Below are positions 14,040 to 61,643 of a stretch of DNA of 64,000 bases, in pieces. Every line of letters begins with the position of its first letter. Positions within the stretch are counted from its first letter, which is position 1. The notes below the pieces were generated by a model that saw nothing but the letters and a program-made list of their open reading frames with translations, was not told the origin of the DNA and ran no database searches. Position numbers and translations under genes: made by a program. This stretch comes from Watersipora subatra (taxonomy: Eukaryota; Bryozoa; Gymnolaemata; Cheilostomatida; Watersiporidae), in the NCBI RefSeq assembly GCF_963576615.1, contig NC_088715.1:1442001-1506000 (forward strand). The letters run 5' to 3'.

Positions 14040-15047
14040 TTCAACATACATGTACTTACTTGAGTCTTTAAATATTTTCATTAACTATTTACTGTTTGTG
14101 ATTGATTAGTAGTAAAATATAATATAAAGCATTGTATTTAGTACCTATACATGTTAATCAAAAATGGATATTTATCTTGAGTTCTATTTATTTGTAGCAA
14201 CATGAATTGTATAAAGGTTTATTTTATAAAAAATTGCTATTTGTCATATTACTGCCAGTGGTCACGGTGTGAATATTTATAATGCCCGAGGCCATTCTGT
14301 TACTAGTAAAAGTAACATAATGTTTGTTATATTATTATATAAAATTAAGCAGCTAAACTTCACTTTAACTAATAAACAGAAACTAGCCAATTACAAGACT
14401 GTCAAACCAGCCAATTATGAAGCTGCAGTAACAACTAGCTTCTGTTCCTTTATTCAATATCTGATAAATTCATCATGAATCACTGTTTGAGTAACTCTTA
14501 TTCAGCTCAGCCAATCAGGAGACAGATAACATCATTATAACCAGCTACAAGCTAAAAAGAAGCCTGTAGTAGTCAGAGCAGGTCACAAACAAAATAGCAA
14601 CCGGTAAGTATAACTTATATATTATATTAGCATATGTTGATCTTGTACTTACTGGGAATAATTGAGTAGATGAGGAGAGACACTGAGTCAGTTGGATTAT
14701 AATATAACTCTGACCTCCTGAGACTATCACTATCTACCCTGAGGAGACTTATAGAGTCTGTCATGTAGTGAGGTTAAGTTAAGGTCAGGAGGCTCTGGTC
14801 TCATTCCTAAGTTATAATCAGACCAGCAAACACTTCCTACTGCAGATAATTCATGTTTCTCAGCTCTTCCAGAGTCTGACTTTCCTGGCCTTATTTATAT
14901 ACTCTGTAAATATCCAGGGTTCACCTGCAGCCACTCTGTAATGGTTGGCAGCTTTCCAAGTCAGCAATTGAGTCACATTTTGTTCTCATTTCTCTATCAT
15001 ATTTTACTGTATGCAGCAGCTAATAAAGTGCAGTACATATTTTACAG
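14040..15047 (+). other. 5' region and probable 5' UTR intron of the ankyrin gene
   Basis: A strong donor (GGTAAGTATAAC, GT at 14604-14605) and an acceptor (TATTTTACAG, AG at 15046-15047) suggest a noncoding first exon ending at 14603 and an intron of about 444 bp before the coding exon. The start of transcription is not recognisable, and the rest shows no coding signal. Confidence 0.4.
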
Positions 15048-15053
15048 TTAAAC

Positions 15054-15729
15054 ATGGAAGGCCTGCTGAAGGATTATGTTCGAGATAGAAATATAGAGAT
15101 TCAAGGGTTGAAGGTAGCCTTAGAGACTGTCCAACCAGCTGAGCTATTGAGGTTACTGATTACTATAGAGCATGACTCATACTCAGCTATTATGGTGGCT
15201 GTAGAAGGAGGCCACGCAAATATCTGTCGTCTGCTTCTTTCAGCAATTAGAAAAACAGCAGACGAGTTGCTATGGATGAAGAAGGATGGATGGACTGTAC
15301 TACATATTGCTGTAAGGAGGGGATACAGTGAGTGTGTAGAATTACTGATAAACACAGTGAGTGAAGATAGGAAGTACGAGTTTGTAGCTGAGAAGACTAA
15401 ATACGGTAACACAGCTATAGCACTGGCTGCGGGGTGTGGAAGTAGCAAGTGTATAGAGTCTCTCCTCTACACCTTCTCCTCAATACAGAGAGACTCCCTA
15501 TTAAACATACAGAATAACGGCCTCTACACTCCACTACACTATGCAGCATGCAATGGAAATACAACTGCTCTAAAGGTCATGCTAGAATCTATGTCTTTAG
15601 TGACTGTCTCTTCACTCCTTAACATAAAGAATAAATTCAACCGTACTCCATTGGAGGAAGCTCAGTATTGGACGAAGAAGGAGTCATCAAAGCTATTAAA
15701 GAGATGGCAGCTTGGCTCAGTAGTAGAAG
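15054..15729 (+). CDS. Ankyrin-repeat / coiled-coil protein, coding exon 1
   Basis: This exon encodes about 225 residues with five ankyrin-type repeats. A divergent one lies near residues 41-65 (VAVEGGH...CRLLL), followed by 79-102 (GWTVLHIAVRRGY...ELLI), 118-140 (GNTAIALAAGCGS...SLL), 157-179 (YTPLHYAACNGN) and a capping one at 196-216 (NRTPLEEAQ). Ankyrin repeats are protein-binding scaffolds, probably cytosolic here because no signal peptide or membrane segment is visible. I chose the ATG just after a good acceptor at 15047. A donor at 15730 (GAAG then GTAGGATT) leaves a phase-1 end, matching the downstream exons. Reading past the donor gives 18 further residues unlike an ankyrin repeat before a stop, so splicing is more likely. 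The specific function is unknown; the architecture resembles innate-immune or scaffolding proteins only in general outline. Confidence 0.8.
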
Positions 15730-15731
15730 GT

Positions 15732-16964
15732 AGGATTGTTATACAGTGTGATACCAGCTACTCACTTGAACTGTTCTATTGCTAAACACTTCAGTCTCAG
15801 CAACTTTCTACGGAAAATCTAAACTAAATGCTAGTAATTCATTATATACATTTACTGTGGAACCCTGTGACATACCCTGGATAATTGCATCTCTATTTAC
15901 CTGTAAACTCACTGAGTCTTGCATAGAAAGAGTGGTGCTTGTCTCCAGCCTCCATCTGAACAGTTTATAGTCTGAGTATTTAAATTAATATTAATAGTCA
16001 AAACTGGTACGATTGAAGTGATGTTAGCAGCTCTTTAAATATCAACTCCTTGTGGCAGACTCAGCAGTTTGGCTTTCGTGTTCCACACTATTCTGTCTGT
16101 TAAAATTTCTGTATTTTGAAATGTCTGAGATGTGAAAAATTTAACGCAATATTAATGATACTATGATTATTGTATGTAGTGGTAGACTAGTGAGTCATTC
16201 CTTTAAAGTTGGAAGTAAAACATTGCACTCCTTTGTTATGTAAGTCAGCTAATCATGAGTGTCAGCTTTTTTACTACAGCTAATCATCTATGCAGTAGTT
16301 TTTGAGGGGAAGTAGAAAGTATTATCACCATGTTTTACACTGCTGTAGAATATCTACAGAATTTTAATTGTTGAATAGTTTAGGTTTGCTAAGACTCTAT
16401 CGTTTGTCATGTTTAGCAGTAAACTGAATAACAAACCAAAGTAGTGTACATATTGTAGCAGCCTCTTGCTTTAATATTCAGTTGTTAAATCTATAACAAT
16501 AGTAATCTTCGATATAAAAATTAAAATCAATTTAGTTGATTTGCTGTTGTTATGAACTATAAGACAACGTGTGATCGAATTTTCTAAGGCAGAAACAGCT
16601 AGTATGATGTTGAGTTTAGGATAAATTTCATGTTTGCTGATGCTGCTTAAAGAACTTGTTACAAAATAACGGCAACATTTATTTTCATCAGATGCATTCA
16701 ACCTATCTTCCATTAACACCTGTAGGTATGAAATGATGTTTTATTTTTTATTTTTACTGAACAACAAATATTGTGGTATGTTTAAATTGGCTGACAATAA
16801 CTACAAAGTTTTATAACTTTTTAAAGATTTCATGTGTTCTGTACAATCGCGAATGGCTTCTACGCCTGAACCACTAAGTCACATGTGTCAAACTCACAGC
16901 CGGGGGCCACATCCGGGGGCCACATCCGGTCCACCTTGTGATCATATCTTGCCGCAAGATCATT
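15732..16964. other. Intron sequence, left of the retrotransposon
   Basis: AT-rich sequence inside the first coding intron of the ankyrin gene. No coiled-coil-like exon was found here. A hAT-like terminus occurs at 16876-16935. Confidence 0.4.
16876..16935. mobile_element. Possible hAT terminus (orphan end)
   Basis: TGTGTCAAACTCACAGCC followed by GGGGGCCACATCCGG resembles the widespread hAT end in which GTGTCAAACTC is followed by GGGCCACAT. A 14-bp segment (CCGGGGGCCACATC) is tandemly duplicated. I found no matching opposite end on either side of the retrotransposon, so this is a fragment or a chance resemblance. Confidence 0.35.
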
Positions 16965-16977
16965 TATTATTATTATT
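16965..16977. repeat. (ATT)n tract at the 3' end of the non-LTR element
   Basis: Short ATT repeat directly beside the 3' end of the minus-strand retrotransposon. A longer ATT/TAA tract lies at its other end (20393-20434), consistent with insertion into a TAA microsatellite. Confidence 0.7.
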
Positions 16978-17085
16978 GTAAAAGTTTTTCTTCACAGTCG
17001 TGTGGTGGTAGGTGACTGGTTGTAGTCCATGTTGAGTCCGGGTCTTAACAAAAGGCCAAAGGATCAACCATCTTCCTCAACTCCA

Positions 17086-18792
17086 CTAAGAGAGGACCTT
17101 CCTCAAAATGTGAGCCGTTCCTAAGATGGCCGTCTTCTGTATAGTCTCAAAAGACATGTTCACTCCCACCTCCGCCAAGTATGCTACATGCCTCATTGAT
17201 ATTGTTCCAAGTGCACCAATTACTATTGGTATCACTTCGGTCTTCACCTTCCACAGTCTGTTTATCTCGAACCCAAGCTCTTTGTAGTTACCAATCTTCT
17301 CATCTTCCTTCTGTACTACCCTTGTGTCTCCAGGTATTGCTATGTCTATGACCTGGCACAGTTTGGTTTCTTTATTTATAAGTATAAGGTCTGGTCTTCT
17401 AGCTTCAATAACCTTGTCTGTTTGCACATTGAAGTCCCATAACAGCGTAACTTTCTCGTTCTCCAATACAGCTTCTGCACGGTGGTCGTACCATTTTGCT
17501 GTGTGGGGCAACTCATGTTTCTTACATATGCTCCATTGCACTGCACTTGCCACTTTGTCATGCCACCCTTTATATTTTGTCTGTGCGATCTTACTGCATT
17601 CGATGACTATGTGGGACACTGTTTCATCTTTCTGCTTGCACAATCTGCATTTCGGATTGTTTGTTGACTTTTCTATCTTGGCTTTCCTATAGTTGGTTCG
17701 TAATGCTTGATCCTGGGCAGCAATTATCAGGCTTTCAGTCTCTCGTTTGAGACATCCCCTCTTCATCCATTGCCATGTCTCCTTTGCAGCTTGATCTTCT
17801 GTCTGTCTTAGATGTTGTCCGTTTATTGGTTTATCATGCCAGTTTTGCTTTCGTTCAGTTTTCTGATGATTTCTATACTCTTGTCGTCCATCTTCACTGT
17901 TGGTATTTATGATCTTACCTGCTGTTCTTATAAATTCGACTGGGCTGCCTTCTGTGTACTTTTTCAGACTGTGACTTTCGTAATTCACAGTTTCCTCAAC
18001 ACTCATTAATCCCCTTCCTCCTTGGTCTCTTTCAACATATACTCTATCTACATCGGATCTTGGATGAAGACCTTTATGCATTGTCATCAGTTTCCGCGTC
18101 CTTCTGTCCAGTTGCTGTAACTCAGCCTTCGTCCACTGAATAATCCCTGCTCTGTATCTGTAAAAGGACACAGCCCATGTATTGATAGCGGCAATGAGAT
18201 TTCCAGCAGTCAGCTTTGATTTCAGCACTTTCATAAGCCTGTGAATGTATTCCTTCTTGATCTTAGCTTTCATTTCAGATTGTTTTATGTCATCTGCCTC
18301 CATAACTCCTAAATATCTGTAGCTTTCATTATCTTCTAGTTCATGGATTTCTGTTTCATTTGGTAGCATGATATTTCCTCTGCCATTTAATTTCCCTCTT
18401 ACCATGGTGATGGTAGCTCACTTATCTAATCCAAACTCCATACCAATGTCATCCCTGAAGATTCTCACTGTGTGTATCAGTGTCTCAATCTCATTCTTGT
18501 TCTTCCCATACAGTTTCAGGTCATCCATATACTGTAGATGGTTAACTGCACATTTGTTTTTGAGATGGTACGCTGGTTTAACTTTGCGCAGTACAGTTGT
18601 GAGGGGTATCATTGACATCACAAACATCAAAGGAAAAAGACTGCCCCCTGAAAGATACCTCGGTTGATCGATACTTTTCCTAGTTCTTTCCCTCCACTTT
18701 CCAGCTCTGTTTTCCATTGTTTTATACCTGCTGTCATGAACCTCTTGATGTTTTCTGAGATCCCTAACATATCCATTAATTTGATTATCCAT
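17086..18792 (-). pseudogene. Retrotransposon ORF, C-terminal half: RT motifs B-C, zinc knuckle, endonuclease
   Basis: One reading frame, broken by a TGA at 18418-18420. Its upstream part (18421-18792) holds the end of RT motif B (SLFPLMF) and the catalytic YMDD box (about 18520-18531). The downstream 439 residues hold an RT thumb-like region, then CRLC...H...C at residues 253-270 (a CX2CX8HX4C knuckle), then the endonuclease with RRPD at 336-339, IDIAIPGD at 353-360 and a K...NYKEL segment at 370-377. The P-D...D residues expected for this endonuclease are present. The frame ends at 17086, about 100 bp before the TAA tract. Confidence 0.85.
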
Positions 18793-18896
18793 GAGTGGGG
18801 AACCATATCATACGCTTTTCTGTAGTCGATCCATCCCATCATCAAGTTGGTTTTTCTTGCCTTACTGTCTTTCATAACACACTTGTCTATTATCAA
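18627..18896 (-). pseudogene. Retrotransposon ORF, RT motif A segment (shifted frame)
   Basis: This segment is in a different frame from its neighbours. It carries RT motif A (WIDYRKAYD, containing a catalytic aspartate) and the start of motif B (GIFQG). Frameshifts separate it from the upstream segment near 18915 and from the downstream segment inside motif B near 18640. A TAA also interrupts the homologous frame at its upstream edge. Confidence 0.75.
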
Positions 18897-19756
18897 TTAA
18901 TCTTTAGTTCCACGACTTTTCTACCACAGCCCTTCTGTTCCCATGGTAGTAGTTCATTTCTCTCCAGGTGTTCATTAATGCTGTCCGAGAACATTGCAGT
19001 CAGTGCTTTGTACATTATTGGCAGGCAGGTAATCGGTCTATAGTTTGATGGTATGTTGCCTTTGCTTGCATCCTTAAGTATTAGCACCGTTCTTCCTGTT
19101 GTCATCCATAATGTCGGAGTGCCTCTCTTGATAATCTCATTCATCTGATTTACAATTCTTGTGTGAAGAGCTGTGAAGTTTTTGACCCAGTAGCCCTGTA
19201 CTCCATCCGTTCCAGCGGCTTTCCATGGTGACAATCTTCCAAGGGTTCTTTTTAGTCCCACAACGTTGATCTCCATATCAGTTTGTTTCTCTAAATCTTT
19301 GTAGTCATGTTCAGCCTCCTTGATCCATTTGGCATCTTCTTCATGAGTGTGCGGTTTTGCCCATATGTTACTCCAGAACTCTAGAGCAACATTGGGCTCA
19401 GGCGGTGGTATCTGTTTCTGTTGTTTACCTTCTAGGCTTTGATAGAATCGTTTTTGGTCTGTTCCAAATAGATGGTTTGTATGAAACTGATTCACTCTGT
19501 CAGAATATCTCTTAATCTTTGCAGCTGTGGATGTCACTCTCTGTTTAAGTTTCTCAATCACTCGGTCTATTCCTTTTTTCTTCAGCCAATAACCTTGCTC
19601 TAATTCTCTTGTGATGAATTGCCTACCTTCTTTGATGTTATTCATCTTTGCTAGATCTTTACGTGTTTCCTCAAGTTTTCTTTCTAGTCTCATTTTCCAT
19701 GCCGGTATTTGGGTTCTCCTGCCACCGGTTTTCTGTCCTTTCTGTAATCTTTTCAT
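18893..19756 (-). pseudogene. Retrotransposon ORF, N-terminal part of the RT domain
   Basis: About 287 residues: a basic, helical lead-in, then early RT motifs (LSPWKAAGTDGVQGYWVK and SNYRPITCLP). The upstream segment at 19841-20266 is in the same frame, separated only by TGA stops near 19838 and 19769. The segment loses frame near 18915. Confidence 0.8.
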
Positions 19757-19840
19757 TACCAGCCATGCTCATGCATATATCAAGTCGTTTGTACCTCCAA
19801 TATCAGTGGTGTCAATAAACCCGATCGCCTGATTGATCAT

Positions 19841-20266
19841 TCATGTTTCCTTCCTGATCTTATCTTTCGGTATCTTCTTTAATTTTGGCATATTTCGCTT
19901 TTGCTCCAGTCCCTCAATGATGTCTTTGAGGCGATTGATTATCTCTCTCTGTTCTTCACCCGATGTTGGTCTTTCGATTGGCGTCTCTATTCTTTCCATA
20001 GTAATGTCGCTCTCCATTACTTCTTCAACTGCATCAATATGTTCATTTACATTGTTCTGAATCAGAGCGTTTGTTGGTGTCGTTGTTACTCTCTGTCTTA
20101 TCTCTTCTATCTCCAAGTCGGACATCAGTCCGTTTCTTTTGATGACTCTGACTTGATCTGCTATCCTTTGATCTGTTGTGCTGAACCATCCTCGATCTTT
20201 CCATATCTGATGCATCCTTTTCATGTATCCTCTCTTCTCTGGTTGACTTTGGTAGTAGCATTCCAT
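19841..20266 (-). pseudogene. Retrotransposon ORF, N-terminal charged region
   Basis: About 141 residues rich in Glu, Arg, Lys and Ile, including a helical stretch near REIINRLKDIIEGLEQKR. I do not see a clear N-terminal zinc finger. It lies in frame with the RT segment and belongs to the same element by position and orientation. Its true start may lie further upstream, near 20370. Confidence 0.6.
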
Positions 20267-20392
20267 TGCATTGATATTGTTTATATGTGTCCATTCTTTC
20301 CTCTTCTCATTGTGATTAGTTGTCCCAGTAACAGGTTGACGACCGCTCCTTGCCTGGGGGGCACAGGTGAGCTGCTGAGCAAGAGTTGACAG

Positions 20393-20434
20393 TTAATAAT
20401 AATAATAATTATTATTATTATTATTATTATTATT
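20393..20434. repeat. (TAA)n/(ATT)n microsatellite at the 5' end of the non-LTR element
   Basis: TAA units switch to ATT units part way along, so the tract is nearly palindromic. It flanks the element's 5' end and pairs with the shorter ATT tract at 16965-16977. Confidence 0.85.
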
Positions 20435-20435
20435 G

Positions 20436-21566
20436 GTATTCGTTGCCAATCGATATGGAGCACTGTTAGTGGAATGCTGCACAGAACTAAGGATCTCCTA
20501 ATCCATCACTTTAGCTGCCTTTGATGAGTACTTCTTGCGTCAACTTAGCTTGAAGTTTGTTTCAGAGGGATATTCCAGTCTGTTTTTATCCATATTTATG
20601 TTCCAAAAACATTTAGTTTTATTGTGTTCAATAAGTGTTTATCTTGCTCAGCCCGTAACCTAGATGGTGTTTGGATTGTTTTCCCCTTTGACAATTGAGT
20701 TTGAAATTTCTGCACTAGGTGCTATTCCAATGCATCTAGTGTGGTTAGTTGCTATTTGTCTAAAGAAAGAAGCACGCTCTCTTATTGTTCGAATTACAGA
20801 GGGTGTATTGAACCTTTGTCAATAAAATCATCGTCAAGCGACAATCATCGTCAAGTCTTACCTCTCGAGAAGCCCAAGCAAATAAATAGCTTTTGGCTAG
20901 CTGAATAGGTCAGGCGCTACTAATACTTTGCAGGACCTCACCTCTGAAAAAAAGCAGCAAAGCTTAACAGCCGCCTGCCAGCCTTGCTCTCTGCTCGCGT
21001 CTGCTTGCCAGGGGCATCTGTTGGTGCTTGAGTCTGTGTATGCCTGCACCTGGCTGTGTCTTTTCACTACCGAGTTGACTACGATAACTTGCTTTTGCCG
21101 CCTGGCACACAATGGTAGTGCATTCAGGTCGTGAAATTATTGAGTCCATTGCTTTGCCTACAAGCAAGCCTGTCCACTCTTGTCGAGTCAACAAATGATT
21201 ACACTCTTTTGCCGCCAAGTCGTCTACGACGTCACATTTTCTGCAGTCAATTCTTTGCCTCGATTCCGCTCACGTTTAATCTGTCTATCAGCCTGTCTGT
21301 CTCTTTCAGCTAGTTTACGAAAATATCTGCCAGCCAGATAGCCCGTCTGATCAAGCCGGTTTTTAAGCTTGTCTCTCGAGGCTCATGTTTGAGCTCTGCT
21401 GCCCATGCCTGCTGGGCCAGCCTGCTTCTCAGCGTGCCTGCTTCTACACCCCTCTGTCTCTTCACAACTCTGCCTTCACACCCCTTTTCTTTTTGGCCTT
21501 CTACATCTACTCGTGTATCTAAGATTCTACCTACTATCTGCAGGTTCTTTTTTCACTATGTTGTAG
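20436..21566. other. Intron sequence, right of the retrotransposon, with a pyrimidine-rich block
   Basis: About 20940-21540 is richer in G+C and strongly biased to C and T on this strand, with recurring CCTGCT/TGCCTG words. It looks unlike the AT-rich surroundings. Short open frames occur on both strands but none resembles a known protein. It could be an old retroposon or intronic low-complexity sequence. Confidence 0.4.
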
Positions 21567-21629
21567 AGTTGGATGACGCTAAACAACAGATTAAAACACT
21601 GCAAATAAAGACTGAGCAGCAGGCAGGAG
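21567..21629 (+). CDS. Ankyrin/coiled-coil gene, cassette exon 2
   Basis: A 63-nt exon with acceptor TTGTAG and donor GGAG|GTAACT. Read in phase 1 it gives a coiled-coil segment containing LDDAKQQIKTLQIKTEQQ. Both ends are phase 1, so it could be skipped without a frameshift. Its flanking introns and first part are clearly homologous to those of the next exon, showing tandem exon duplication. Confidence 0.7.
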
Positions 21630-21851
21630 GTAACTTCCTATGTAAATGTCTTACTGGTCCATTGTTAGTACAGTACTGATGAAGAAATTAAATCACTTCT
21701 GTAACTGACAACGCATATGATTGCCTTGTTATCAGGTGAATGTGCTAAGGTAATTCTAAGCACCAGTTTGTTCAGCACTTTTTGTGATTGTCAAATGCAA
21801 GCAGTAAAATTGTTGCATATTTATCAGCGGGTTTTTTTCACTTTGTTGTAG

Positions 21852-21980
21852 CATTGGATGTCGCTAGACAACAAATAAAAACACTGCAAGTTGGAAGTGA
21901 CCAGAAACTCTCTGCTCTACAAAGAAATTGTGACCAGAAAGTCTTAGCGCTACAGAGACAAACTCAGCAGCAGGCAGAAG
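21852..21980 (+). CDS. Ankyrin/coiled-coil gene, cassette exon 3
   Basis: A 129-nt exon, phase 1 at both ends (acceptor TTTGTTGTAG, donor GAAG|GTAACT). It starts like exon 2 (LDVARQQIKTLQ). It then has 66 nt more than exon 2, made of two 11-residue units of the form xDQKxxALQRx. An 11-residue (hendecad) period is common in coiled coils. Both splice junctions and downstream intron bases match exon 2 closely. Confidence 0.7.
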
Positions 21981-22169
21981 GTAACTTCCTATGTCATTGT
22001 CTCATTAGCTCATTGTTAGTATAGAACTTAGGGAGAGAAGTCAGTTACTTTTGTAAATGGTTATGCATGTCATGGTCAGAGTAGGCAGATTTATTTACAT
22101 CCAACCACAAATATAAGCAGTAACAGTGTGGCACATGTATCAGAAAGTTTCGCACCCTGACTTTTACAG

Positions 22170-22265
22170 CATTGGTTGAGTCTAGACAGCAAGTTACAAC
22201 ACTACAGGAGGACAGTGAGAGGATGTCGTCATTAGTACAGGAAAAGGCTAGACAGCAGAGAGCAG
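22170..22265 (+). CDS. Ankyrin/coiled-coil gene, cassette exon 4
   Basis: A 96-nt exon, phase 1 at both ends (acceptor CTTTTACAG, donor GCAG|GTACTT). It encodes a coiled-coil segment that begins LVESRQQVTTLQ and contains SSLVQEKARQQ. The opening repeats the pattern of exons 2 and 3 (hydrophobic residue, two variable residues, A/S-R/K-QQ), so it is probably an older duplicate. Confidence 0.65.
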
Positions 22266-22666
22266 GTACTTTTATTTCTTATAAGCCCTATAAGATTATT
22301 TACTCTCCACCTCATATCTTGAATATCTAGTATCACCCAATGCTAGTAACCTATAAAATACCTACTAGTATATATTATACTAGCTGTGGTATTGCTCTGA
22401 TGGTCTGATTCTATAAGGTTGTTGTTGATCAATCATGACTCACTTTTAATAACTTTATGTAGATATGTTAAAGCTGCTTGAGTTACATAGTATGCAAGCA
22501 TTTACTGCATAGATTCATGGTGTTTAATCAGAATGGCAGCATTTTTCATTTTTACACTGCAATCAGCATATGTTGATAGAGATTTTTCATTGAATTCTTC
22601 CTGCTCAGCAGTAAAATTATTTCTCATTTATATAATACTCATAATGAAGAATGTCTGTTTATTCAG

Positions 22667-22723
22667 ATTTGGCTGCTACTCAGCAGAGGCTGGAACAATT
22701 GGCTGCGTACCTACATGCTCCAG
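22667..22723 (+). CDS. Ankyrin/coiled-coil gene, cassette exon 5
   Basis: A 57-nt exon, phase 1 at both ends (acceptor TTATTCAG, donor CCAG|GTGATA). It encodes a helical segment containing DLAATQQRLEQLAAYLHAP; the proline marks the end of the coil. No further exon of this gene could be recognised with confidence, so its 3' end is unknown. A candidate solo LTR starts about 27 bp downstream. Confidence 0.6.
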
Positions 22724-22749
22724 GTGATACGAGTTTGACAGGCAATCAA

Positions 22750-23083
22750 TGTCACGATCCGGACAGTTAACAGTGTAGTAGCCGAAGCTGACAATCTACC
22801 CACTCAGATACTAAAAGTTCTGGGTGACCTACGTTTTAGCCCAACCATACCGGTAAGACGATCCGAACCGACCAATATTCAGCTTGAAGAAAAATGTCTA
22901 GCCGACCATCAAGCTGGAGGTGCCAGCCTATGGTATATAAAGACACACAGGAGCCCCACTACGCAAGCATCATCAAAGTGATCACATGAGGTTGTTCTCT
23001 GTATTGTAATACATCCTGCTTGTATTTTATTTTTTTGATTAAATAAACTTATTCTTTCAACCTTCTCTCTTCATCCATATGCA
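22750..23083 (+). mobile_element. Candidate solo LTR
   Basis: The segment starts TGTCACGATCCGG, has a TATA-like TATATAA at 22934-22940 and an AATAAA at 23042-23047 near its end, the layout of an LTR with promoter and polyadenylation signal. CAATG occurs at both borders (22747-22751 and 23082-23086) but overlaps the TG start, so the exact ends are uncertain. No internal retroelement sequence adjoins it. Confidence 0.45.
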
Positions 23084-23821: not shown

Positions 23822-25844
23822 AGATGTAGTTGCGTCAAAATTTAAGTTGATCTTAAAAGAAAGCATTTTTTTTTTCTCTATCAGTTGATATGTTGTTTGT
23901 TGTGTTACGCGATCGCATTGCCAAGATATTTGAAGATTAAACCGGAAAAAATCTGATCGCCGTAAAAACGCTCAGGCCACCAAAACGTGCCCAGACTTGC
24001 CCAAAATGATGTCACGCGTTTGGCAACCTGTCTCTATCTCTCGTATTCACATCGGGTATTTGCGATAAAAGTCTAGTCGTACGCGGCTCTATTGGCATAT
24101 ATCTTATTTTGTATTTGCTCATGTTGGCTAGAATAAAATTTTAAATCCTGCTACAGATGCATTATTATGAATGTTTCAAAGGCCTCAAATAACGAAAATT
24201 GAAAATTTGTTCTACTCACTTTCTCCAAATGTTGTGTAAACATTTGGGTACCGACTACCAATTCTACCGGTCTACGGTAATTCTGTCAAGTCACTATTGT
24301 AGAACGCGGTCTTTGTATCAGCACAGTTCTGCAGCTACCCATACAAATGATATACAGCCTCCCATAAGTCCCGCCCACATTATGTCGCCTATTACCTATT
24401 GCCTACATACTATTTTTTTACTAGTAGTATTCTTAACGAATACTAGATAAGTGAAATAAGCAAGCCACCTCTTTGAAAAAAATATAGACAGGGATAGAGT
24501 TTTAAGGATGAGAATTCTGCTGCAAACTGGATTTGAACTCGCATTCTCCCGTTCTGCGGACACCCATATACCATATCCGATTCACTACAATATTCTGCAA
24601 ATCATGTTTTGCATTATCTTTAACAATATTATTTTATTATATAATTTTTACAAGCAAAAATACTTTCATCTCGGCATAAAGCTTTTATTAAAAGTATTCA
24701 TCAAGTCGTGGCCACTCACATAGTATTAGCTGATACAATAAGACAAATTAATCTACTGCAACAAACTCAAACAAAACATCGTGGCTTATCCAGCACGCAT
24801 TCAAGTCTCGCTTTCTCCTTTATGGCAGTTTCCACACTGACAAAGCTTCTTCGGCTGGTGGGACGACATAAACATTCTGTAATCAGTAAAACAAGTAAAT
24901 GTAAACAAAGTAGATGCAATAAATATGTCATTCATAGATATGTCATTCTAAAGCGTATCTATTGACAGCTTCCAAATTGGGAGTTAAATAGATTGCGAGT
25001 GTAATTTTAAAAACGAATAAACATTTAATAAAGGCACCGGTACGCCAAGCCAACGATTCGAAGCTTTGGTTCTAAAAATTAAAGATTTGCAATGATCATT
25101 CGATTTTACCCACTTCTTACGAGTGAAAATAATTTGTAATCATGACTCTAATTTACCAACGAAAATTCGAAAAAAATATTATAGCTAGGTAAAACGGCAG
25201 ATAAGCTATGAAACGATGATTGGAGATAGCAAAGAATTATCATTTTATTAATTAGTATATGTATTTATGACTATAAAAAATATTACATTTACTAAAGTAT
25301 AGAAGACTCTAAGTTAATTTACCTCCTTTCTGTCTTCTTCTGCAGCAAAACGCTGCTGACGCCTGTCAGCTTTGGCCATTGGCTGTCTACTCTAATATTT
25401 TACTAAAAGTTGCTCAGATAACTCTGAGTAGCGGTCGCTCGAACTTGAAGCCATTTTAAAACTATGTATAACTTAGTAAATGTTGAAACGCGTTGAATCA
25501 GTAACGAATGAGAATGAATTCTCTAATTAGGAGAATCTTCGAGATCACAGACAACGCGTTTTACAAGTGATAACATTTATTACGGCCTATATAAAAATTT
25601 CGCACGCATGATTGGCTAACGAATCGACCTCATATTTATTGCTCGTGGTTTCGTTTCAGATACCTTGCTTGTGACGTCACAAAATAGGCACCCGCTGGAA
25701 CGTGAGCATTTTAAAAGAGGGCCTCATTCAAACGCATATATCTCTGGACAGGGTTGGTCTACAAAGACAAAAATGGCATCAAATTGTAGCTGATGTTTTA
25801 GCCTTTTATGGGTCCTAAATGACCTTTTTGACGCAACTACATCT
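23822..25844 (-). mobile_element. 2-kb TTAA-flanked transposon carrying exon-like segments, copy 1 (inverted)
   Basis: The ends AGATGTAGTTGCGTCAAAA and TTTTTGACGCAACTACATCT are inverted repeats, each bordered by TTAA (23818-23821 and 25845-25848), as piggyBac-type insertion leaves; a TA target cannot be excluded. It is clearly the same sequence as 53411-55396 and 62238-64000, in the opposite orientation. On the minus strand it carries the same CRE-like site, TATA-like box, start codon, in-frame TAG and CQCGNC segment described for copy 2, plus a tRNA-like segment near 24515-24600. No transposase is visible. Confidence 0.8.
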
Positions 25845-29051: not shown

Positions 29052-29420
29052 ATGTGACAGAGAACAAGTGACATACCATACAAGCTAGTCATGTGACAGA
29101 AAATGAATGACAATACTATAGTGACTAGTCGTGTGACAGGAAAGGAGTGATACAATCGTAAACACAAGTCATGTGACAGGAAAGAAGAGATAAACCATAG
29201 CCATTAGTCATGTGACAGGAAAGGAGTGATACACCATGGCAACTTTTCATGTGACAGGAAACAAGTGATGAACCATAGAAGCTATTCATGTGACAGGAAA
29301 GGAATGACAATACCATAGTGACTAGTCGTGTGACAGGGAAGGAGTGATACAATTATAAACACCAGTCATGTGACAGGAAAAAAGAGATAAACCATAGCAA
29401 TTAGTCATGTGACAGGAAAG
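29052..29420. repeat. 39/40-bp minisatellite with five-unit higher-order pattern
   Basis: About nine units share AGTCATGTGACAGGAAAG followed by a variable second half. The second halves recur in fixed order (endings CATAGTGACT, then AATCGTAAACAC, then AACCATAGCCATT, then ACCATGGCAACT, then AACCATAGAAGCT) and then begin again, so the higher-order period is five units, about 198 bp. Each unit contains CATGTGAC, an E-box-type word, and GGAA. Open frames across it are incidental. Confidence 0.85.
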
Positions 29421-53797: not shown

Positions 53798-54420
53798 ATG
53801 GCTTCAAGTTCGAGCGACCGCTACTCAGAGTTATCTGAGCAACTTTTAGTAAAAGATTAGAGTAGACAGCCTATGGCCAAAGCTGACAGGCGTCAGCAGC
53901 GTTTTGCTGCAGAAGAATACAGAATGGAGGTAAATTAGCTTAGAGTCTTCTATACTTTAATAAATGTAATATTTTTTATAGTCATAAATACATATACTAA
54001 TTAATAAAATGATAATTCTTTGCTATCTCCAATCATCGTTTCAAAGCTTATCTGCCGTTTTACCTAGCTGTAATATATTTTTCGAATTTTCTTTGGTAAA
54101 TTAGAGTCATGATTACAAATTATTTTTACTCGTAGGAAGTGGGTAAAATCGATTGATCATTGCAAATCTTTAATTTCCAGAACCAAAGCTTCGAATCGTT
54201 GGCTTGGCGTACTTGTGCCTTTATTAAATGTTTATTCGTTTTTAAAATTACACTCGCAATCTATTTAACTTCCAATTTGGAAGCTGTCAATAGATACGCT
54301 TTAGAATGACATATATTTATTGCATTTTTTTTACTGATTACAGAATGTTTATGTCGTCCCACCGGCCGAAGAAGCTTTGTCAGTGTGGAAACTGCCATAA
54401 AGTGGAAAGAGAGACTTGAA
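53798..54420 (+). pseudogene. Two-exon gene fragment carried by the TTAA element
   Basis: Segment 1 (53798-53929) begins MASSSSDRYSELSEQLLVKD, meets TAG at 53858-53860, and continues in frame as MAKADRRQQRFAAEE to a donor GAG|GTAAAT. Segment 2 follows an acceptor TTACAG at 54343 and, in one frame, reads PKKLCQCGNCHK; one base-shift further on, ECV follows seven residues after CGNC. A CxCGxC followed about seven residues later by EC(V)CC is typical of the cysteine domain of P2X7-like proteins, so this may be a truncated capture of one. The frame after a simple splice would instead be NVYVVPP and stop. The TAG is present in all three copies. Confidence 0.4.
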
Positions 54421-54630
54421 TGCGTGCTGCATAAGCCATGATGTTTTGTTTGAGTTTGTTGCAGTAGATGAATTTGTCTTATTGTATCAGCTAATACTAT
54501 CTGAGTGGCCACGACTTGATGAATATTTTTAATAAAAGTTTTATGCCGAGATGAAAATATTTTTGTTTGTAAAAATTATATAATAAAATAATATTGTTGA
54601 AGATAATGCAAAACATGATTTGCAGAATAT

Positions 54631-55400: not shown

Positions 55401-56633
55401 AGAGGAGATTTCAGTAGACACAAAGAGCACTGCTGCAAAAACCGAACAGAAAAACTACAGATATTATTTCAAATCCGTGTAACTATGGACTTACCTGCGG
55501 TAAAAACAAAAAGATGCAAAACTATCATTATAATAAAAATTTTAACTAGCAGCTGGACCACAGGCTACTAAAAAAACCAAGCAATGATCAGGCCAGCTAA
55601 CCGGATATGAATCACTCATCCCAGGCTATTTATAGAACAGTGGTACACAGCCAGGACAAGTTAAAAATTAAAACCTGGTTCCCACATCAATTTCGAAACT
55701 TTGGCTATAATAATACGGAGCAAAACGCTTGCGACGCTAGGCTCGGCGGCTTATGTTCACTTAAAGCTTCATCACTAATAACGGCATAAAAATTTACGCT
55801 TGCTATGCCATTTTTATAATGCTGACTTTCACATGTGCAGCGCATTTCAGCTATTTGAGAAATTTGAACCGCGCTAAACTCTTGCTTTGCCGCTGGCAAC
55901 TACCAGCGGTCTTTGGCGGTACCCGGCGCATAGTTTCAAATTTCACTGCTAATAGCATGTGGTGCAGTCGCTGCAGCTTTGTGAGGTATATGGTAACCAG
56001 GTTTTAGATCATTGCATTGATTGGGACAAATGCTTAAGCGCTTATGGATTCTTAGAAAAGCTACAGCAAAAATCACTTCAATGGAACCACAATAGGCCCT
56101 TGCGATACGACATCAATCTGTTCTTGTTTTGGCATCAAAGGGTGAAAATGTCCGAAATAACAACTATTTAATGCAAAACCCTGGAAATAGGCCTTATAAT
56201 TTATACATGTACTGAACATATTAAATATTCATAACAAAATAGTATGTTAACCTTAGTAACTATAGTTGCTTACAATAAATTTAGTGTATTTAGTTGTTAT
56301 GATATGCTCATGGTTACAAGTCTTACTTTTTTCATTTAATTTCGTTATCAACCTTAGGACCCAAGGCTAATGTATTGAAGTTATATATGTAATTAGATGC
56401 ATATAGTTAACCTAGCTAAGTTAAGCTTAGTTAAGTTAGGTACACAGTAATACATGATGACTGAGATTGGATTGGTCTGGTTACAATGGATATGGGGATT
56501 ACATGATGATGAATCAACAAAAGCCATGACCCAGGGACCAAGGTCATTGATACATTAATCACTGCGTCAGTAACATATCACTGAAAGCAGCTTTGGAAAA
56601 TAGCTCTATGGAGGATGGTAGAACTAACCTCTA
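55401..56633. other. Gene-free stretch
   Basis: No supported exon. A short hairpin (GCCGCTGG / CCAGCGGT) lies near 55890-55910. Confidence 0.4.
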
Positions 56634-57215
56634 GCAAGACACTCAAAAAATGACCTCTAGAGCTTGACCCATAGAAACGAACTCTAGCGTTCCACTATAA
56701 CAATGAACTCTAACATTCTACCTTAACAATGACCTCGAGTATGTATAACCATAAAAATGACCTCTAGCAGTTCATCCACAACAATGACCTCTAGTGCTCC
56801 ACCAATAACAATGACTTCTACAACTAAACCAATAACAATGACATCTAACATTCCACCTATAAAAATAGACCTCTAGCGCTATGTATATAACTATTACCTT
56901 AGCGTTCCACCCATAACAATAACCTCTAGCACTCACCCATAACAATAACCTCTAGCGCTACACTGATAACAATAACTTCTAGTGTTCCAACCATAACAAT
57001 GACCTCTAGCGCTCCACCGATAACAATGAACTCTAGCGCTTCACCCATAGCAATGACCTCTAGCGCTCCACCCATAACAATAACGTCTAGCCCTCCACCC
57101 ATAACAATGACCGCTAGCACTCCACCCATAGCAATGACCTCTAGCACTCCACCCAAAACAATAACCTTCAGCGCTCCACCCATAGCAATGACCTCTAGCG
57201 CTCTACCCACAACAA
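56634..57215. repeat. 27-bp minisatellite
   Basis: Units of the form CCACCCATA(A/G)CAATGACC followed by TCTAGCGCT repeat, regular at 56930-57215 and more degenerate with variable spacing to the left. Because 27 is a multiple of three, open frames run through it on both strands; they are not taken as coding. Confidence 0.85.
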
Positions 57216-60200
57216 TAACCTGAATGAAACCTTGGATCTAGCATCCACTCTACTAGTTAACATTAGGTTATATCGTGATAATAAAAGGATATTGTATTTT
57301 TCTTTGACCTGTACCATAGTGAGCACATACATGCAGAATTATTCAATATTATTTCAAGAAACAACGAATCCAATTTAAAAGAAGTTGTTACCCCGCTGTT
57401 AAGTATCGATTATTGCTTAGACAGTTTTGTGTCACATCTCTTTCAACACAAGAAATTATTAAAATATATTGAAGCTTTATCAATTATCCCCATGAAAACA
57501 GGCTGGTATGATACATCAATTGTAAAACATGACATAGAAGTATTTCTGCAATTTCAATGTGAATAGTTTAAATTCTCTCATAGGTGAACTTGTTTACAAT
57601 TGTTGACTTATTGGATTAAAAATTATAATTTAAACAAATTTTTATTATTACCAAAATTATTTAAAATTGGCTAAGGATGCTTTTGTATTCTATAAGAGTG
57701 TTTGTTGCACTCCGGAGTTTGTAAATGAGCCATAGATAAAATAACTCGAGTGTTGATCACAAATCACTGAGAGTAGCAGGAAGAAGATAACTTCAAGTTT
57801 AGGGGTATATAATGGATGACTAAACAAAGGATTTTCACATAGTTTCCTATCTACCCTCTTTATGGTACAGGAGTCGTGCACATAGGGCTAGCAATCCACC
57901 TAGCAGTCTTGATTAGATCAACAAAAATGTTTTAAGAAATCAGCCAAACTGTCGTTTGTACTGGTTCAGTTTACAAATGACTGATCCTCTGTAACAGCCA
58001 ATCAGATCAGATGGATTGAAGTTCTATTATCTCACACAGAACTAGCTAGCATGTGCTAATAACCAATAAAAATAACGACCGTATTTGTGTACGTAACAAC
58101 AGTTGATAGGGTAGATTGTTCCACGTGCTCCTTTACAAAGCTTTCATGAATAAATCAAATTTTATCCTATGTTATCCTTTACAAAGGTTGTGAAAAATAC
58201 TCAAACAGTGGAGGCTGAACAAGAAAGTCTGCCACAATTATATCAAACTCGCACCCAGGCAGCTAGTCTAGTGTGCTGTGAGAAATTATCAGGTGTGATG
58301 ATAGAGCACAAACAATAACTATCTGTGTGATTATTCTGATATTTCAAAGGGTAGTAGATTGGTCGAAGTAGAGTTTCAGTCTACCAAGCTGAATATCAGG
58401 AGTTCAAATCTTGTATGATGTAATCTTTTTTCCAATCTTAACCTGTGGCTACGGATGGACGGACAAGATTACCAATGCATAGATCTAGACTCACCTCAAG
58501 TCTATGTATGGATGATCCATAGAAGTAAAAGTAGAAATCAAGGTAAATACAGCCAAATGTAGAGCAGAAGTGAGACATTTCTACAAATACCCTCAGGTAC
58601 CTATAAATAATAAACATAGGAAATCACTGCACCGTCATAGCTCTGAGAAATTTAAAAGAATAATTTACGAGACAACATTGATAAATTTTTATTAACACGC
58701 AAGGAATTCAACACACAGAATCAGCTATGTAAGGGAGCAAGGGAGTTTGACTATAGAAAACCTGCAGTGCGTCTTCATGATTATGTGACAACCAACTTTT
58801 CTATAGAAACATTGGAGGCCTTCTCAATCACTAGTGTTACATACCATCAATTTTTGACAGGTTTTTTATCTTCGTACCACATCAATGGTTTGAAAAGTGG
58901 AATATTTAATTCTTCGAAGTGATTCAAACCTCCGATTCAAGAAGGGGTATTTTTAAAAACATCATATCAACAACGAGGTACTGCGTATGGTGTAAACATC
59001 GATATTCGTATTATTGCACAAATCTTTGCAACCGGAGGTTGGAGTTTCATCATCTTCATCGATGATGTCCTTACAGCATTTCTACGCAGCTCTGTTTTCA
59101 ACGTGTGTGTTCTAAAAACATTTAAAAACATGTTTATTTTAAAATGTTAAAACACAAACATTTTATAAATATTTCCAAATGCCAAAAGTTGTGGGAAGTT
59201 TTTCTTTTAAATTCAGAGTTATTTTCCAAAATGGTGAACTCTCTGTTCTCAGACAAGTTAGTCATCGCAGAACTCAAAAATGGTTGTATTAAACTTTTTG
59301 TTAACAATAAATAGTCATTGTGAATTGAAAGGGGAAGATTTACATTTGATCTTGAATGCATTTTAATAGTGTCAGCTGTATGTAGTCATTGTGAATTAAC
59401 TGTGTTTTACATCTCAGCTGAATAGATAGTGTCAGCTGCGATGTAAATCATGCGCCCTTCTGTAGCTAAAAGCGCAACAGGCTTATTTAGAAAACTCGGA
59501 CAATTTTTTTGTAGCGTGTGAACTCGTCAGCTACAAACAATTGGGAGTTGTGTGACCACTACTGCGAATCATGTAAGTTCGTCCTCCTCATTCTACGATC
59601 AAAACCAGCATTTTGAAGCTCAAAAATGCAGCATGTAATGTTGGTGATTGTGTCTGGCAACTTCTCAAGGTGTCAGACACAATCCAACCTTCTCAAGCCA
59701 GTTACAGCGCCTCTCACGGCGGTATCTATCTCTATTGGCTACTGGCTAATTAAGTCATTTGGCATGTTGCAATTGACCTCAATTGGTCAATTGGCATTCT
59801 TCCAAAGGATTCCAAGTTTATTCCACTCTAAATGCGTCTCCAAAGGTTGGCTACAGAAAAGACATATTTAGTCTGGCATGTATAAATGCCTTTAAGCACA
59901 CAGAAAATATTGATCCTTATTAAGATATGAATTAGGTACCATACATCCACTCATTTCCTAGCCTTAGTATACAAACATCATATACACTATATACCAATCA
60001 ATATGAGCTAATGAAATAGCCAATTGTTACTATCCACATGGAAGAGGGGAGTTACTAGCACAAGTAGTACCAGTGCTACTAGCCTCCTAGCTACAGCCTC
60101 AAGTACTTTACTATCTGGTATCGAGTATACTTGTCTTCTCTAGGTTCATGGTACACAGGCTAAATTAGAATAGTTGGTTAAAGGTTGCTTTTTGAAAATT

Positions 60201-60499: not shown

Positions 60500-61060
60500 T
60501 CATACGAGCAGCACATCTATACATGCGAACAGCACATCTATACATGTGAACATTACATCTACATGTATGTATATGATCAGTACATATCTACAACTGAGCA
60601 AGAAAACTTTAGATACAGAATATTTGTACATATGTACTGCTAGACAGTACATATGTAGACAGTATGCTAGACAGTACATACTACAGCAAAAGTATACGTA
60701 TGAACAGCAAAAGTATACATATGAACAGCAAAAGTATACATTTGAACAGCAAAAGTGTACATATGAACAGCAAAAGTATACATATTAACAACATATATGT
60801 ACTTATGAACAGCATGTCTATACATATGACCAGCATGTATATACATATGAACAGCATGTATATACATATGAACAGCATGTATATACATATGAACCACATG
60901 TCTATACGTATTAACAGCATGTCTATACATATGAACAGCATGTCTGTACATATGACCAGCATGTCTATACATATGACCAGCATGTATATACATAAGAACA
61001 GCATATATATACATATGAACAGCATGTCTATACATATTAACAACATACCTATATGTTTGA
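60500..61060. repeat. 21-bp minisatellite
   Basis: Units such as AGCATGTCTATACATATGAAC and AGCAAAAGTATACATATGAAC repeat every 21 bp, with an interruption near 60590-60680. They share the AACAGC..TGTCT.TACA core of the adjoining 17-bp array. Open frames through it are incidental (21 is a multiple of three). Confidence 0.85.
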
Positions 61061-61102
61061 ACAGTATAGCTTTAAATAAAAACGGTAGCACGGCAAATAT
61101 GA

Positions 61103-61643
61103 ACAGCTTGTCTGTACAAACAGCTTGTCTGTACAAACAGCTTGTCTGTACAAACAGCTTGTCTGTACAAACAGCTTGTCTGTACAAACAGCTTGTCTGT
61201 ACAAACAGCTTGTCTGCACAAACAGCTTGTCTGTACAAACAGCTTGTCTGTACAAACAGCTTGTCTGTACAAACAGCTTGTCTGTACAAACAGCTTGTCT
61301 GTACAAACAGCTTGTCTGTACAAACATCTTGTCTGTACAAACAGCTTGTCTGTACAAACAGCTTGTCTGTACAAACAGCATGTCTGTACAGACAGCTTGT
61401 CTGTACAAACAGCTTGTCTGTACAAACAGCTTGTCTGTACAAACAGCTTGTTTGTACAAACAGCTCGTCTGTACAAACAGCTTGTCTGTACAAACAGCTT
61501 GTCTGTACAAACAGCATGTCTGTACAGACAGCTTGTCTGTACAAACAGCTTGTCTGTACAAACAGCTTGTCTGTACAAACAGCTTGTCTGTACAAACAGC
61601 TTGTCTGTACAAACAGCTTGTCTGTACAAACAGCTTGTCTGTA
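61103..61643. repeat. 17-bp minisatellite, about 32 copies
   Basis: The unit AGCTTGTCTGTACAAAC repeats with very few variants, so homogenisation is recent. The unit has no stop codon in any frame on either strand, so long apparent proteins appear in several frames; these are artefacts. A variant pair (AGCATGTCTGTACAGAC) occurs twice, exactly 136 bp (8 units) apart. Each unit is an imperfect palindrome around TGTACA. Confidence 0.95.

Follow-up and report, generated by a model that had tools for sequence, protein, structure and literature searches.

Does the ankyrin gene between positions 15054 and 22723 of a 64,000-nucleotide stretch of the Watersipora subatra genome place coils of different lengths behind a constant ankyrin domain, as an earlier note on this DNA proposed, or does its variability reside elsewhere? 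The stretch, hereafter the window, covers positions 1,442,001-1,506,000 of chromosome 8 of this colonial bryozoan, and coordinates below count from its first nucleotide unless a chromosome is named. Comparison of the gene with its copies elsewhere in the genome gives an answer that reverses part of the proposal. The ankyrin domain is the hypervariable part of the encoded proteins, and in two clades of copies diversifying selection is focused on the presumed partner-binding face. The supposed constancy of the domain is contradicted by this selection at concave-face positions, and also by the average divergence of the exon, which exceeds that of the 150 bp of non-coding DNA on each side. The gene belongs to a germline-encoded family which, with a probability of about 0.68, comprises binding proteins, probably oligomerised through their coils, that most likely recognise pathogen proteins or non-self.

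Diversifying selection on the concave face

The coding part of the ankyrin exon (15054-15729, starting at the ATG) is 676 nt long, ends in phase 1 and encodes five ankyrin repeats. The Pfam model Ank_2 matches it with an E-value of 3.3e-36, and four other ankyrin models score above their curated cut-offs. An AlphaFold prediction on this exon alone reached a mean predicted local distance difference test score (pLDDT) of 52 and was not used; the concave face was assigned by repeat position, with positions 2, 3, 5, 13 and 14 of the five repeats forming a core of 25 columns. The first clade is represented by the 30 copies most similar to the window gene (L009-L038), with the five repeats anchored on TPLH-like motifs; in their codon alignment L030 and L037 end three codons early at the exon end. 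The second clade, located on chromosome 6, is represented by 21 copies, comprising 20 of 119 close copies, mostly the closest, and L061.

Divergence among the 30 copies of the first clade, calculated per 75 bp, is 0.066-0.152 in the ankyrin exon and 0.028-0.068 in the 150 bp on each side; farther away, the divergence of the non-coding DNA exceeds that of the exon. The codons with most amino-acid change recur at fixed spots of every repeat. In the core columns nonsynonymous divergence (dN) is.407 and synonymous divergence (dS).180, compared to.080 and.118 in the other columns. In 10,000 random draws of 25 columns the core value is never matched, and among 33 register shifts (-16 to +16) the true register ranks highest. 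The chromosome 6 clade behaves similarly, with dN and dS of.373 and.156 for the core and.053 and.097 for the rest, and again none of 10,000 random sets reaches the core value.

Changes were also counted on trees by parsimony, which removes the weight of near-identical pairs. In the first clade the core has 281 nonsynonymous and 19 synonymous changes, corresponding to a ratio omega of 2.40 (p 2e-5), with 0.67 for the rest; in the chromosome 6 clade the numbers are 175 and 16, with an omega of 2.44 (p 1e-4) and 0.58 for the rest. Among the 25 codons richest in amino-acid changes, 15 belong to the core in each clade, whereas 2.8 and 2.7 are expected. Positions 1, 10 and 16 are variable too. The outer helix (positions 17-25) is little varied, with dN values up to.100 in the first clade and.215 for position 22 in the chromosome 6 clade. 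Tyr, Trp and Arg are abundant at the variable positions 2, 3, 5, 10, 13 and 14: in the two clades, Tyr accounts for 16% and 13.5% of the residues, Trp for 7% and 6%, and Arg for 10% and 15%. Mantel tests between repeats are mostly weak, with p < 0.05 in 5 of 10 pairs for one clade and in 1 of 10 for the other, and are not taken to prove recombination.

A mutation hotspot as the sole cause of the variable codons was considered and is unlikely. In the core, codon positions 1, 2 and 3 differ at rates of.32,.33 and.22 in the first clade and.31,.32 and.17 in the second. Third positions thus differ least, and the excess at the first and second positions speaks against a local hotspot as the whole cause.

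Size and genomic location of the family

The genome, of 783,720,542 bases, was searched for ankyrin exons twice, once with the exon of the window (best 150 of 658 candidates) and once with a divergent member (best 150 of 687). Together these searches identify at least 254 distinct places (150 from the first query, plus 119 close matches of the second, minus 15 found in both), a hand count from the result tables that includes fragments and copies with stops. Ninety-three copies among the best 150 of 658 candidates are at least 68% identical to the window exon. Full length without a stop codon is retained in 79 of these 93 copies and in 109 of the 119 close copies of the divergent query, also by hand count.

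The closest relatives of the window gene cluster near chromosome ends. Ninety of the 93 copies are located on chromosomes, and 84 of these 90 are no more than 3.2 Mb from an end, in a zone, chosen after the data had been seen, that holds 9.6% of the sequence. Within 0.5 Mb of an end, in 1.5% of the sequence, there are 36 of the 90. The 3.2-Mb zone contains 11 of 28 copies with 57-68% identity and 1 of 25 below 57%. At the left end of chromosome 8 there are 23 copies, every one on the plus strand, and the median spacing there and on chromosome 9 is about 67 kb. Clustering at chromosome ends is a trait of subtelomeric variant families, and it holds for the clade of the window; the second clade is interior, with 115 of its 119 close copies (best 150 of 687) at 42-58 Mb of chromosome 6.

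Five copies (L012, L013, L016, L018 and L023), on chromosomes 8 and 9, are near-identical and have a differing upstream stretch, which perhaps reflects recent exchange between chromosome ends. The genome also holds another ankyrin expansion, consisting of clusters of long uninterrupted ankyrin open reading frames (ORFs), each roughly 700 to 2400 residues long, at 47.9-49.3 Mb and 59.1 Mb of chromosome 8 and at 13.2 and 22.5-22.8 Mb of contig C2.

Gene structure

The features assigned to the window gene, and the retrotransposon in its first intron, are as follows.

14560..14603, plus strand: probable 5' untranslated exon, 3' end; donor GGTAAGTA with GT at 14604; 14560 is an arbitrary start
15048..15729, plus strand: ankyrin exon; coding sequence from the ATG at 15054; GT follows in 30/30 copies
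15730..21566, plus strand: first intron; contains an antisense retrotransposon resembling a long interspersed nuclear element (LINE); first 150 bp well conserved among copies
16950..20440, minus strand: LINE-like element in intron 1, not belonging to the gene; broken reverse-transcriptase frames; ends judged by eye from TTA/ATT repeats
21567..21629, plus strand: coil exon 1; 63 nt, symmetric phase 1, zero inserted 11-residue units
21852..21980, plus strand: coil exon 2; 129 nt = 63 + 2 x 33, symmetric phase 1
22170..22265, plus strand: coil exon 3; 96 nt = 63 + 33, symmetric phase 1; dN/dS 0.23 among 7 genes
22667..22770, plus strand: terminal exon, coding part; LAATQQRLEQLAAYLHAPGDTSLTGNQCHDPDS, stop 22768-22770; supersedes the proposed 57-nt exon
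23042..23047, plus strand: AATAAA in the sequence, possible polyadenylation signal; 2 of 3 paralogues inspected have one in a comparable location

Four small segments downstream of the ankyrin exon had been proposed as skippable internal exons, at 21567-21629, 21852-21980, 22170-22265 and 22667-22723 (63, 129, 96 and 57 nt). All four have AG/GT borders and lengths divisible by three, and joined to the ankyrin exon they give a single open frame. For the first three, the phase-1 frame is the sole open frame, and their coordinates, lengths and phase, as well as those of the ankyrin exon, stand as described in the earlier note. The 57-nt segment is different: all three of its frames are open, and its frame crosses the GT to continue as GDTSLTGNQCHDPDS up to the stop at 22768-22770. 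All 11 other genes compared (L049-L059) have a closely similar tail, that of L058 being longer by one residue. The segment is therefore the start of the terminal exon, leaving three symmetric internal exons, not four, and on this basis a model with four skippable exons was rejected.

It looks likely from conservation that the ankyrin exon is joined to the coil exons in one gene. The predicted protein has 355 residues, and up to about 500 among the genes examined; inspection of the window protein by eye reveals neither a signal peptide nor a membrane segment. At the 5' end, the GT of the donor at 14604 is kept in 24 of the 30 aligned copies of the first clade; L024 has TT, and the five near-identical copies mentioned above have other sequence there. 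An in-frame TAG lies just 5' of the junction between the untranslated exon and the ATG. Much of the length of intron 1 is taken up by the antisense LINE-like element, in which the Pfam model zf-RVT scores above its cut-off and two RVT_1 fragments score below theirs.

Coiled-coil exons

Coil exons were surveyed in 12 genes, namely the window gene and L049-L059, giving 38 exons in total. All 12 contain coil exons in phase 1 and end in a similar terminal exon. The number of coil exons per gene ranges from 2 to 6; these are lower bounds, because for L049, L050 and L053 the stretch compared starts downstream of the ankyrin exon. L055 and L058 yielded no exon of the last coil type (LVxARQQ). Thirty-five of the 38 exons fit a length of 63+33k nt, with k = 0-4, where the exon finder accepts multiples of three only and the chance rate of such a fit is therefore about 1/11. 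The three misfits measure 99, 99 and 90 nt, of which the 90-nt exon (L059) may be broken. Each 33-bp unit encodes 11 residues, for example SDQKVSALQRE, and its hendecad character is judged from length alone. Coil length thus differs between gene copies through the number of exons and of 33-bp units, so that the modular phase-1 coil of varying length envisaged earlier is borne out as variation among gene copies (2-6 coil exons, 0-4 units per exon).

The coil and ankyrin exons are associated throughout the genome. Of 150 listed coil matches (180 in total), 146 lie at most 20 kb downstream of an ankyrin exon on the same strand, a tally based on 106 of the 150 ankyrin places, which can only lower it. 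The remaining four are located on contig 174 (one) and at the tip of chromosome 9 (three). The last coil exon has a dN/dS of 0.23 (7 genes). Across 31 coil exons the ratio is 0.34 in the opening 14 codons and 0.97 in the final 6; the terminal exon (12 genes) has a value of 0.77.

A different coil is found in the chromosome 6 clade at L061:2138-2930 (about 54.55 Mb), where a 14-residue unit, LAQAVNKFTHYVVA (42 bp), is repeated in tandem. At this one locus the end of the unit resembles a splice acceptor, and acceptors 42 nt apart could set the coil length; a hydrophobic, membrane-like stretch is readable past the donor.

Other features of the window

Ten other ORFs of the window, from 189 ORFs of at least 55 residues outside excluded stretches, gave no Pfam match above cut-off, and Rfam and tRNA scans of the window gave no matches. 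Long ORFs on both strands of 60693-61643, a region of 17-bp and 21-bp minisatellites, are probably spurious. A related ORF occurs twice in opposite orientation, at 24645-24965 (plus strand) and 54261-54575 (minus strand), and is probably an interspersed repeat. Minisatellite arrays with units of about 39 bp and 27 bp are present at 29052-29420 and 56627-57221, respectively.

Proposed function and alternative explanations

From these observations the following mode of action is proposed. Each copy would encode a probably intracellular protein, consisting of a five-repeat ankyrin domain, a coiled coil assembled from phase 1-1 exons and 11-residue units, and a short conserved tail. The concave ankyrin face of each copy would bind a different or changing protein target, while the coil would gather several molecules and so provide avidity. 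Duplication of, and exchange among, the clustered copies could supply the repertoire. Such proteins would most likely serve to recognise pathogen proteins or, the animal being colonial, non-self. A more specific version, held tentatively and at somewhat less than even odds, is that the family represents nature's equivalent of engineered binder libraries, in which the concave ankyrin face acts like an antibody paratope while valency is set by a modular hendecad coil, and that it forms a class of animal recognition receptor.

Several points weigh against recognition by a diversified binding family. The searches covered one species, and the predicted 355-residue protein contains only ankyrin Pfam models and no second domain. 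The sequences tested for selection are the closest matches and thus a non-random sample; gene conversion can distort dN/dS between paralogues, and parsimony counts are simple. Omega over the whole exon is 0.93 and 0.87 in the two clades, indistinguishable from 1. Synonymous divergence is somewhat raised in the core (.180 vs.118 and.156 vs.097), and at four-fold third positions the core compares with the rest as 0 of 274 vs.064 in one clade and.147 (of 701) vs.057 in the other. Because the four-fold positions give a mixed result between the clades, there may be a modest local increase of mutation in core codons. Finally, repeat position 26, the sixth randomised position of designed ankyrin repeat proteins (DARPins), is not variable in the bryozoan copies.

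The family could alternatively serve allorecognition rather than defence, marking or reading individuality when colonies fuse or reject each other. The colonial habit of the animal and the numerous diversified, linked copies are consistent with such a role. Surface display would be expected, however, and this is at odds with the lack, as judged by eye, of a signal peptide or membrane segment in the window protein. This alternative is rather unlikely. The literature found for bryozoan allorecognition consists mainly of tunicate and cnidarian work and is neutral on this point.

A model in which one gene produces, by exon skipping, coils of different length behind a constant ankyrin domain is improbable. 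The three symmetric phase-1 exons do satisfy the phase condition for cassette exons, but tandem exon duplication requires symmetric phase likewise. In addition, the proposed fourth exon is terminal, and it is the ankyrin domain that varies; its supposed constancy was rejected on the focusing of changes on the concave face in both clades.

Another explanation, which is quite improbable, treats the ankyrin exon as a single-exon coding gene ending near 15785, with the coil exons belonging to another gene. It draws on an in-frame tail, GRIVIQCDTSYSLELFYC plus stop, that most of the 30 first-clade copies retain. When this 18-codon tail is read through, the 30 copies show 12 nonsynonymous and 7 synonymous changes, i.e. 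63% nonsynonymous where 79% is expected at random, so that the synonymous share (7/19) is slightly above chance. The DNA past the stop, however, is conserved nearly as well as the tail itself; the tail carries indels in 2 of the 30 copies, and two of four divergent loci (L060 and L063 among L060-L063) have lost it. Moreover, a GT follows the ankyrin exon in the same frame in all 30 copies, the phases match, and the order of ankyrin exon followed by coil exons is constant. The refuting case named in the earlier note, a frame that ends near 15783 with no downstream exons, looks unlikely. The sequence after 15729 is best read as conserved intron, and an isoform may end there.

Neutral expansion, in which regions near chromosome ends copy a gene without function, would suit the spacing of the copies, about 67 kb, the scarcity of other recognisable features between copies in the window (10 ORFs tested) and the 14 of 93 close copies that are fragments or bear stops, but it is very improbable indeed given the full frames retained in most copies of both clades, the constrained coil starts and scaffold positions, and the concave-face omega above 2.

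Significance

Colonial animals need to discriminate self from non-self and to resist pathogens without antibodies. If the proposed recognition role is correct, ankyrin repeats join the scaffolds that are diversified in animal germlines. The family would then put the residue choices behind DARPin design to a natural test, and would provide a large natural set of ankyrin variants for structural studies. The genes are concrete candidate loci for bryozoan immunity and allorecognition.

Comparison with known systems

TRIM5-type restriction factors combine a multimerising coiled coil with a fast-evolving binding face. The bryozoan proteins would share both properties, but the predicted protein has only ankyrin Pfam models.

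In the literature searched, no paper joins Watersipora with ankyrin, no paper combines ankyrin repeat, hendecad and coiled coil, and no title on an ankyrin-coil family appeared among those found for bryozoan ankyrin or immune families. An antibody-like role of an ankyrin scaffold of the kind proposed here was not found described in animals. Expanded or highly diversified recognition genes are likewise known from the SRCR family (PMC10855680) and from Botryllus fester and fuhc (PMC3549757, PMC12065747), and malaria variant antigens are likewise diversified and subtelomeric (PMC3747859); all of these have other protein folds, and the listings for these families mention no ankyrin scaffold with a coil.

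In DARPins, diversity is placed at repeat positions 2, 3, 5, 13 and 14 over a conserved scaffold, as in the bryozoan copies (PMC3602593, PMC9611651, PMC8683736, PMC8229355). PMC3602593 lists contacts at the randomised positions Tyr46, Leu48, Ala56, His57, Ala78, Ile79, Phe81 and Phe89, which with an offset of 43 applied here (position 1 = residue 44) correspond to repeat positions 3, 5, 13, 14, 2, 3, 5 and 13. Unlike the DARPin set, position 10 is hypervariable as well in the bryozoan copies. DARPins are engineered, whereas the bryozoan copies are natural and germline-encoded, carry a coil and a tail, and have repeats spaced 37-39 residues apart.

The nearest known case is that of the fungal ANK-repeat NOD-like receptors, for which positive selection at concave-face ankyrin positions is described in Podospora anserina (PMC4986451). 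As in the bryozoan family, positive selection acts on the concave face and the genes form large families; the fungal families are tied to non-self recognition, as is proposed for the bryozoan one. Fungal NOD-like receptors are defined by a NACHT/NB-ARC domain, which Pfam does not detect in the predicted 355-residue bryozoan protein. In contrast to the fungal receptors, the bryozoan genes combine five repeats, fixed in number, with a coil of variable length, and they do so in an animal host.

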